Assembly (NCBI RefSeq): GCF_905475395.1
Contig: NC_058339.1
Span: forward strand, 38,077,172 to 38,141,171
Length of the DNA: 64,000 nt
Source: Chrysoperla carnea
Lineage: Eukaryota; Arthropoda; Insecta; Neuroptera; Chrysopidae
Direction of reading: 5' to 3'
Positions 9,284 through 12,278 of the stretch are shown here, piece after piece. The position numbers and the translations under genes are program-made. Each line of letters begins with the position of its first letter. The first letter of the stretch is position 1. The notes under the pieces are model-generated. The model did no database searches. It saw only the letters and a program-made list of their open reading frames with translations, and was not told the origin of the DNA.

Positions 9284-12278
9284 ATGGCAAATGAAGTCCA
9301 AAACGTCGCTGAAGGTGGTTTAGTTGGTGGTTCAAAATTAAATCCGGACGGTGAAATAGGCTCCAGCGCATTAGTATCAGAAGCGACATTTAATTTCGAA
9401 ATCACTAATTTCAGTCAATTGAAAGTAACTATCATTAATTTAGGATGCCGTACAAACTTATTGCTAGATAATACGTTTCTTTTATTGTCATTTATTGATT
9501 GCAGTACAAAAGCTCTACTGTCTAAACATTCAACCCTAATCCGAATCTAATATGATAGAGATCTAATTGTAAGCTTGAAATTTTTGGCATAGGCATTTCT
9601 GAAAGTCTGTGGCATTTCTGGAATTTCTAAATTCAACATTTCCATATAGAATGATCCTCTCCGTACCGAATGGCGAACGATCTCCTGCACATTTTTTCTT
9701 ATTCTTTTTTGCCTTCAATACAGTAAATTTGTTCTATTAGAATTTTAATCTATATCAAGAAAATTGTAATAATGTGTGTTTTCGCATCAAAGTAATTACT
9801 TAGCTTCAAACTGTCTTATTGATAAAATATAGGAACCAGTATTTTCATCGCCATTTTACGTAAGAGATTTACCTTGGAAAATAGTAGCTATGGAATATAC
9901 ATGTCGAAAACATGATAAATCTGATGAAAAATTACTTGGATTTTTTCTACAATGCAATGGTGAAAGTGAATGTAGTTCATGGTCATGTTGGGCAGTAGCC
10001 GAATTGCGTTTATTATCATACAAACCCGATATCGAACCATTTTCTAGGAAATTACAACATTTATTTTATAATAGAGAAAATGAGTGTGGTTTTTCCCATT
10101 ATATGAAATGGAATGAAATTTTGGAATCAGATAAATGTTTTGTCAAAGATGATTGCATTACGTTAGAAGTATATCTTCTTGCCGATGCTCCACATGGTAT
10201 ATTTTGGGATTCAAAAAAGTATACTGGATACAATGGGCTAAAGAATCAAGGAGCCACATGTTATATGAACTCTTTATTGCAGGTACGAACATGTTCTTTT
10301 TCAAATTTGCTTTATGTTATCATGTATTTCCAAAGTACTCATTTCGGTCAATTTATTATGAGTTTGGGAAGTAAATTGCAGTTTTCCAAGGACGAAAATA
10401 TTATTTTAATTTAAACTGATCTGAGAACCAGGTCTTTCTTGATTGAAGAAGAGAAAGACAATGGTTCCAAGCGCAGTATTATTCGCGTTATTCGGCATGA
10501 AATATTCCGACCAACTGCTTGATTTTAAGAAAATTTTGTTTCTGGAATAGATGGAGGCTTATTGGTGTACATTTAAAATGTAATTCTTTATCAAATACCA
10601 TCAACTTTTCTATAACTGCTGCCTGTTTATGTTTTCATGGAAAACGCACATTTTCAGAATTATATTACTATTATTAAATAACTATTTTTCAAATGATATT
10701 TTTTAACAATCAATTGTGTTTTTAGACTTTGTATTTTACAAATCAGTTGCGAAAAGCTGTTTATAAAATTCCAACGAAATCAGATGAAAGCACTGAATCA
10801 ATTGCTTTAGCATTGCAACGTTTATTTCTTGATTTACAATTTAGTGATAAAACAGTTAATGTTAAGTCAAGCTTTTGTTGGGAAACCCAATGTTTTCCAA
10901 ACAAACATTTATACAACAATAACCATTATAACAATTTATGCAATCATTCATTTATCCAGCATGATGGTCAAGAATTTCTTAGGGTAAGCACCCAATTTAA
11001 TATTTGATGTTTTGAAAGTTAGTTTAGTTAGCCATAAACGTGAAACTCCCTAGATAAGAATAATCGGAAAATATAGTACTGAAAGAATTTAGCTTTAGAT
11101 GTATTTTTACGGCTAGATTTTAAATATTTTTTATAGGTGTTGTTGGATAAATTAGAAACCAAAATGATAGGTACATGTGTTGAAGGCACTGTGCCAAAAC
11201 TGTTTGAAGGAAAAATGGTATCTTATATTAAATGTAAGAATGTTGCATACACTAGTAAACGTTTTGAAACATTCTACGATATACAATTGAACATCAAGGG
11301 GAAGAAGAACATTGTGGAATCATTTAAAGATTATATCGCCCATGAAACATTAGACGGTGATAACAAATATGATGCTGGCGAACATGGACTACAAGATGCT
11401 GAAAAAGGTGTTATATTCTCATCATTTCCACCAGTACTTCATTTACATTTGATGCGATTTAAATACGATTCCATCGCTGGTTGTACTGTAAAATTTAATG
11501 ATCGATTTGAGTTTTATGAACATATTTGTTTAGATGGTAAGTTTTAAATTGATATTTTTGTCTACAGTATAATCTGAAAGCATGATCGAAACTAAGCGAG
11601 ATTAGTTGGTAGATATCATCCTCAAATTTTGGCATTCATATTTCAATTTATCGAAACATACTGCTTTTAGTCGTCAAAAAATTAGAATACCATAAAATCG
11701 TTTTCCTTATGAAATATTTCTAACTTCACATATAAATAAATATTTTTCATTTTATAAGGGATGTAAGCATGATCTTAGGTAGTCAATATTACGAGGATGG
11801 TCATGAAACGGGAGGGGAATTATTGTTACTGCCAAATAGATTAACCACTAACTAACTTGTAGAATATTTACAAGAAAGTGAATCAACCCCAGCCGATTAT
11901 ACTTTACATTCAGTATTGGTACACTCTGGTGATAATCATCGTGGACATTATGTTGTATTTATAAATCCAAAAGGTGATGGTAAATGGTGTAAATTTGATG
12001 ATGACGTTGTATCACATTGTACAAAACAGGCAGCAATTGAAAATAATTACGGGGGACCTGTCGAAGAAAATTTTACTGCGAAACATACTGCTAACGCATA
12101 CATGTTAGCTTATATACGTGATAGTGAATTAAGTACCGTACTTCAAGAGGTGACTGGAGCAGACATACCTAGTGAACTTGTTGAAAGATTAGATGAAGAG
12201 AAACGTTTAGAACAAATTCGACGTGAACAATTTTATGAAAGATTTTACGAACAACGAAAAAAAATTAAATTAACATGA
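9284..12278 (+). CDS. Truncated USP7 paralogue: MATH/TRAF + USP catalytic domain, no UBL array
   Basis: Five exons: 9284-9424, 9833-10282, 10726-10983, 11137-11536 and 11863-12278. They give an uninterrupted 554-aa frame with GT-AG introns at the same positions and phases as the complete copy downstream. ATG 9284 is the first after an in-frame TGA at 9275. A MATH domain (about residues 35-160) precedes the catalytic core. The core keeps the Cys box [13 protein letters not shown] (Cys190), the His box (His445) and WCKFDDD (Asp462). It differs from the full gene in four ways. The MATH-pocket Asp-Trp is Glu131-Cys132. About 18 residues rich in Asn/His/Cys sit in the switching loop (about 252-269). 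The His box reads NHRGH instead of NHGGH. The protein diverges after EQIRRE and stops, with no UBL domains or C-terminal tail. The catalytic exons remain about 90% identical to copy 2. A deubiquitinase of altered regulation, or an inactive decoy, fits; a young pseudogene with an intact frame cannot be excluded. Possible polyA signals lie at 12422 and 12491. Confidence 0.85.

Follow-up and report, generated by a model that had tools for sequence, protein, structure and literature searches.

USP7 (HAUSP) contains a MATH domain, a USP catalytic core with fingers and the triad C223/H464/D481, and then UBL1–5 and an activating C-terminal tail. The human core without the UBLs is weak (PMC6335408, PMC12501124). 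Its switching loop is kept in the active state by the C-terminal tail (PMC6335408) and in the inactive state by the W285–H294 stack (PMC10516900). In the human catalytic domain, W285A and H294A raised the activity, the latter approximately 25-fold in kcat/KM (PMC10516900), and thus the switching loop is a place where changes can release the core. F283A abolished the activity of the domain, according to a source whose wording is inconsistent on this point (PMC10516900). For substrate docking, D164 and W165 are described as essential for the binding of P/A/ExxS targets (PMC6203733), and the USP7 contacts in the MAGEL2-peptide structure include W165, D164, R104, and M100 (PMC13142314). A truncated form is known from Hao-Fountain syndrome (E547*, PMC12501124). 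In human USP7 cut at E547, a compound at the tail's pocket led to an approximately 47-fold gain, reaching the wild-type level (PMC12501124). USP47 has a USP7-like switching loop and is activated by its C-terminal parts (PMC10516900).

The window, i.e. the whole analyzed stretch of 64,000 nucleotides from Chrysoperla carnea, contains a complete USP7 gene (the parent) and, upstream of it in tandem on the same (+) strand, a truncated copy (Table 1). The parent displays MATH, USP, USP7_ICP0_bdg (274.5 bits), and USP7_C2 (216.1 bits) domains in Pfam. The copy gene (9284–12278) has five exons, four introns with GT–AG borders, and 554 codons plus the stop. All of its introns share their codon positions with introns of the parent. 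The first-pass annotation had described a second intact USP7 gene with shared splice positions and an open 554-aa frame, and its coordinates, frame, and exon count proved right.

Table 1. Coordinates in the window. Substituted residues follow human USP7 numbering.
Feature	Positions	Strand	Description
Inositol-polyphosphate-phosphatase-like gene, 3' part	592–2325		Upstream neighbor; Exo_endo_phos2, 106 bits for exon 787–1383
Decayed relic of parent exon 1	8790–8915	+	Stop at 8826–8828; start-codon block (parent MNHVTGQEK) missing; donor not conserved
Copy exon 1	9284–9424	+	New start ATG at inner Met of parent exon 2; in-frame TGA just upstream
Copy exon 2	9833–10282	+	MATH domain and catalytic Cys box; MATH_2 63.2 bits (Pfam cut-off 32)
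R104Y of copy	9896–9898	+	Altered MATH pocket, exon 2
D164E/W165C of copy	10082–10087	+	Altered MATH pocket, exon 2
Catalytic Cys codon of copy	10259–10261	+	In exon 2
Copy exon 3	10726–10983	+	Switching-loop exon, 45 nt longer than that of the parent; alone no Pfam match
18-residue in-frame insert	10891–10944	+	Cys/His-rich; switching loop, between human positions 288 and 289
Copy exon 4	11137–11536	+	Ubiquitin-binding fingers/palm; UCH 50.1 bits (Pfam cut-off 23.9)
Copy exon 5	11863–12278	+	Catalytic His 11946–11948, Asp 11997–11999, short new C-terminal tail, stop; UCH 59.3 bits (Pfam)
Complete USP7 (parent)	15480–22686	+	Seven exons, 1118 aa, MNH to IYN, with UBL region
Exons of complete USP7	15480–15564, 16692–16909, 17910–18359, 18945–19157, 19541–19940, 20275–22167, 22589–22686	+	
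Ribosomal S8-family gene			Downstream neighbor; 47.5 bits

The copy protein matched human USP7 over human residues 28–543 (E = 4.7e-203), and the best 34 of 60 rows in a PDB search were USP7. USP12/USP46 were clearly more distant, with PDB scores of 80–91 bits versus 680. The UCH matches of exons 4 and 5, both above the cut-off, and the PDB matches assign the copy to the USP (C19) sequence family, and the MATH_2 match provides the N-terminal MATH domain. A structure prediction for the copy MATH exon (A1, two sequences) gave a mean pLDDT of 44.9, and this result was set aside. By the common intron positions and the PDB matches, the copy descends from USP7, and its sequence family and active-site residues make it a USP.

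DNA similarity between the copy and the parent extends from approximately 8794/15400 to 12239/20654, the latter point lying inside parent exon 6, in line with the earlier statement that the copy stops right after the catalytic domain. Upstream of the copy, 8794–9157 matched 15400–15748 (blastn, E = 8e-20), and there was a weak additional patch at 8349/14683 (E = 6e-4). These boundaries indicate that the copy arose when a segment beginning upstream of exon 1 and ending within exon 6 was duplicated in tandem, which yields the order seen: the 3'-truncated copy first and the complete gene second. The relic of exon 1, in frame 0 from 8790, reads TTPQHDVES-LVITPANLNE and lines up with the parent by eye. 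An automatic DNA alignment placed the gap differently; opposite the GT donor of the parent, the copy has no GT. The new start at 9284 faces QPMADAQ of the parent (aligned by eye). The copy no longer has the original ATG, and its translation would begin at the inner Met. Upstream of the parent ATG, the frame is open for 77 codons without Met (15249–15479), a stretch partly recognizable in the relic; a non-ATG or upstream start of the complete gene is possibly located there. At the other end, the last residues of the copy beyond EQIRR had no match in the parent, and UBL1–5 and the activating tail are absent, as the frame stops at 12278.

Retention of the introns excludes a retrocopy. Because the parent is complete, the copy does not fill a gap in it. 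Reading the 54-nt insert as an intron is excluded as well, since GT...AG removal would disrupt the frame (by eye). The earlier figure of about 90% identity for the catalytic exons holds for exon 4, the best conserved (91.0% nt, 91% aa), but not for exons 2, 3, and 5 (82.9, 78.4, and 81.3%). For the catalytic part, as far as it aligns, the identity is 87.6%. The introns have diverged, as had been noted, and when aligned globally they come close to the level of shuffled sequence: introns 3 and 4 fall inside the range of eight shuffles, and introns 1 and 2 lie slightly over the best of eight (0.499 vs 0.495 and 0.488 vs 0.474). This divergence, together with a dS of 0.48–0.60, excludes a recent allelic or haplotig artefact.

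Selection was estimated between SEATF and IRR, where 488 codons align. Of these, 479 were used, nine codons of the switching-loop stretch being dropped; the N-terminal and tail codons had been removed beforehand. NG86 yielded dS = 0.478, dN = 0.092, and omega = 0.19 (bootstrap 0.13–0.26); ML yielded dS = 0.600, dN = 0.089, and omega = 0.149. The yardstick was not 1 but about 0.5 or more, the pairwise omega predicted for a copy that evolves neutrally next to a parent under constraint. For the whole alignment, ML rejected both omega 0.5 (2dL = 52.4) and omega 1 (2dL = 124.7). Omega 0.5 was also rejected for the catalytic part (2dL = 52.9) and for aligned exon 5 alone (120 codons, omega = 0.113, 2dL = 17.1). 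For MATH, omega was below 0.5, with a weak rejection (2dL = 6.2). The Ka/Ks check proposed in the first-pass annotation thus came out well below 1, both overall (0.15–0.19) and in aligned exon 5. Neutral simulations, in which the copy branch was taken as half of dS, reached a dN as low as observed in 0 of 400 runs for the 479 codons and in 2 of 400 for MATH. Neutrality would have created 23.4 stops on average, and the copy has none. By these values, the copy is old and under purifying selection. If all dN is assigned to the copy with half of dS, its own omega becomes approximately 0.30 for the whole alignment, 0.47 for MATH, and 0.22 for the catalytic part, so that its constraint is relaxed yet not absent.

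Locally, the picture was less even. Whole exon 5, including the divergent tail, gave an NG86 omega of 0.33 against a bootstrap median of 0.21, and the 40-codon window 62–101 gave 2.2 with only two synonymous differences. For synonymous differences, the spread was uneven (p = 0.025 for the variance among windows, p = 0.16 for the longest run). One identical run between the genes measured 73 nt (random 95% limit 56, 99.9% limit 88). Some gene conversion between copy and parent is therefore possible. GC3 was 0.209 in the copy and 0.259 in the parent.

These irregularities could be read as signs of a recently dead or dying copy, kept parent-like by its earlier function and by gene conversion. The loss of the start exon, the lower GC3, the uneven synonymous differences with the 73-nt run, and the raised rate (64 versus 2 derived sites, see below) fit such a history. 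We consider it improbable, given 554 codons free of stops and frameshifts, an exon 3 that is intact despite a dS of 0.82, and a MATH omega that is also below 0.5. Moreover, going by the absence of stops alone, a neutral period could not have exceeded about 0.03 substitutions per site, or about 13% of the copy branch when this branch is taken as half of dS. Disabling changes and neutral rates, the marks of a pseudogene, were not found: the frame is open, the introns are kept, and the ML omega is 0.149.

The same intron positions, the tandem order on one strand, and the GTAAGT donors shared by copy exon 4 and parent exon 5 would also permit copy exons 1–4 to serve as alternative cassettes, spliced to parent exon 6 to give a variant full-length USP7. 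Copy exon 5 makes this highly improbable: it would be useless in such a product, yet it is constrained (omega 0.113, with 0.5 rejected) and has its own stop.

To locate the changes, human USP7 was used as an outgroup. Over 495 sites aligned in human, parent, and copy, 64 were copy-derived and two parent-derived (p = 6e-17). Among sites identical in human and parent, the copy had changed 24 of 92 in MATH (68–205), 9 of 57 in 208–272, 9 of 22 in the switching-loop stretch (273–297), and only 1 of 79 in the fingers (298–402). The counts were 3 of 12 in blocking loop 1 (403–420), which is less conserved than the fingers, 1 of 21 in 421–455, 1 of 29 in 456–486, and 0 of 20 in 521–554. A second cluster of copy-derived changes covers human 487–520 (11 of 30 such sites; 12015–12119). 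Human=parent sites and other sites differed little in their rate of change: 25/94 and 15/49 in MATH (p = 0.70), and 35/272 and 16/73 in the catalytic part (p = 0.06). Within the catalytic part and the tail, 14 of the 39 changes derived in the copy had positive BLOSUM62 scores against a neutral expectation of 34%, which makes these changes about as radical as neutral ones. Synonymous differences were fewer in the fingers (13/97) than in 208–272 (22/53), so part of the finger identity may be due to gene conversion.

In the MATH pocket, the copy carries R104Y, D164E, W165C, and M100V, and the parent keeps all four human residues. The D164–W165 pair needed for P/A/ExxS targets is thus E and C in the copy, and D and W in the parent. 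Pocket residues were not significantly enriched for change (4/8 vs 20/84, p = 0.20). UBL2, the second docking pocket, is absent with the UBLs. On this sequence evidence, the copy has lost both known USP7 docking pockets, and it lacks two defining features of USP7 architecture, the pocket residues and the UBLs with the tail. The suggestion that the protein acts as a dominant competitor for USP7 substrates is not supported as far as the MATH pocket is concerned: competition through MATH is unlikely, since the copy, unlike the parent, has other residues at these pocket positions.

The catalytic machinery, in human numbering, is retained: N218, C223, H464, D481, and D482 are present, as are F283, W285, H294, D295, Y465, and Y514. 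All 16 listed finger positions are kept relative to the parent; at 372 the copy equals the parent, differing from human. The lists of finger, pocket, and loop positions are literature-backed in part, namely at the positions for which papers are cited. One substitution, G462R, puts an Arg before the GHY motif, as in USP12/USP46, which are not known to carry a MATH domain and are activated by WD40 partners. The Arg at the same place in these enzymes means that G462R need not inactivate the copy. As a separate observation on blocking loop 1, the parent has Ser at the position of human N418 (19889–19891) and the copy has Thr; N418S makes the isolated human catalytic domain hyperactive (PMC12501124).

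The switching loop has been rebuilt. It carries the 18-residue insert, a three-residue deletion before it, and the substitutions G284C, L288Q, D289H, M292I, and V296G. The insert partly resembles a slipped local duplication (by eye). The insert region has a ligand-like spacing, C-x4-C-x4-H-x5-H-x4-C-x-H. Equal Cys and His richness occurred in 8 of 20,000 random AT-rich peptides and in none of 5000 stop-free sequences made by shuffling its own DNA, in a post hoc comparison. Binding of a metal or a redox response at the insert could conceivably replace the lost UBL/tail as activator and form a new on/off device, but we regard this as a long shot.

With these results in hand, we favor, at a rough probability of 0.5, a working ubiquitin-directed core that stands outside USP7 targeting and tail control. 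An old tandem duplication turned the upstream copy into a gene of its own, which is kept by purifying selection and predicted to encode a MATH+USP protein of 554 aa. This protein has lost the MATH pocket, UBL2, and self-activation by UBL45 and the C-terminal tail, while retaining the catalytic residues and the fingers. It would bind and cleave ubiquitin as a core enzyme outside the USP7 substrate network. We propose that the enlarged loop disturbs the W285–H294 autoinhibitory stack and that the core can thereby work without the lost tail, its activity probably being low and unregulated. The first-pass prediction of a weak core-plus-MATH protein agrees with published biochemistry insofar as loss of the UBLs should deprive USP7 of activation by its tail (PMC6335408, PMC12501124), but the rebuilt loop undercuts it in its simple form.

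Some results speak against a working core. The 18-residue insert in an active-site loop could as easily kill the activity, F283A does so in the human domain (PMC10516900), and V296 is changed to Gly in the same loop. Further counterpoints are the changes in blocking loop 1 (3/12) and in 487–520 (11/30), the radical character of the changes in the catalytic part and tail, the similar rates at human=parent and other sites, the 2 of 400 neutral runs for MATH, the lack of significant enrichment in the pocket, and the signs of gene conversion. The copy may act as a ubiquitin-binding decoy, in which the ubiquitin surface is kept, the enlarged loop blocks catalysis, and ubiquitin or ubiquitinated proteins are sequestered. 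The contrast between the nearly unchanged fingers (1/79) and the loop stretch (9/22, with the insert and the deletion) points in this direction, as does the weakness of the human core without UBLs (PMC6335408, PMC12501124). However, the copy has kept the triad, N218, and D482, and 456–486 is nearly frozen (1/29), which would be needless for a pure binder. We hold the decoy to be doubtful, and considerably less likely than a working core.

The genome (559 Mb, 337 contigs) was searched for relatives. The copy protein gave at least 16 matches, nine of them inside the copy and the parent. Among the matches listed, the next best was a locus with 38% identity to the copy protein (G000:C3:24006052), which we take to be USP47-like. 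The USP7_C2 profile had a single match genome-wide, in the complete USP7. Neither a third USP7 nor a UBL-only partner elsewhere in the genome was among the matches listed for the copy-protein and USP7_C2 searches. For parent exon 5, scans of viral and prokaryote sequences returned 7 and 63 pattern matches, respectively, none of which was confirmed as a relative.

As to the surroundings, the last ORF of the upstream neighbor ends in CSIQ, a possible CaaX box as in INPP5E, and we take the downstream S8-family neighbor to be S15A. Nothing in the 64-kb window reached the Rfam gathering score. A promoter scan of 8300–12700 with a bacterial consensus gave 26 matches against 26.6 by chance. Farther downstream, 47882–48527 holds a tandem array (unit 302 bp, 2.1 copies, 88% matches) with two related minus-strand ORFs within (84 and 83 aa). 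Two separate minisatellites with a period of 27 bp (34487–34543 and 51608–51663) have a common core, TAAAATACGAG-AAGACAGAGA. Related minus-strand ORF fragments at 44186–44410 and 50258–50545 (RYR-IWIDF-PYLKNYSTSQQ) suggest a dispersed repeat.

Compared with the described systems, the copy shares the MATH–USP order, the triad, the fingers, and, with its neighbor, the exon positions of USP7. It differs from USP7 in lacking UBL1–5 and the tail, in the replaced pocket, in the 18-aa loop insert, and in a shorter N-terminus. Like E547* (PMC12501124), it ends just past the catalytic domain without the activating tail. In the disease allele E547*, the core is otherwise normal, whereas the copy is an old separate gene with a changed loop and pocket, adjoined by an intact USP7. 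Unlike USP47, it is far nearer to USP7 and carries MATH. In literature searches of open-licence PMC papers, none of the titles and abstract openings listed described a USP7 duplicate in insects, a lineage-specific USP7 copy, or a paralogue of this kind.

USP7 is known to need its tail for activity, and truncation of the protein is found in patients with disease. Persisting partial tandem duplicates are no rarity among genomes, and the interest of the copy lies in its changed regulatory points rather than in the partial duplication as such. A lasting MATH+core gene, in which the docking loop of the tail has been rebuilt and both pockets appear lost, would offer a natural test of the core acting alone, and also of whether evolution can make the switching loop independent of the tail.
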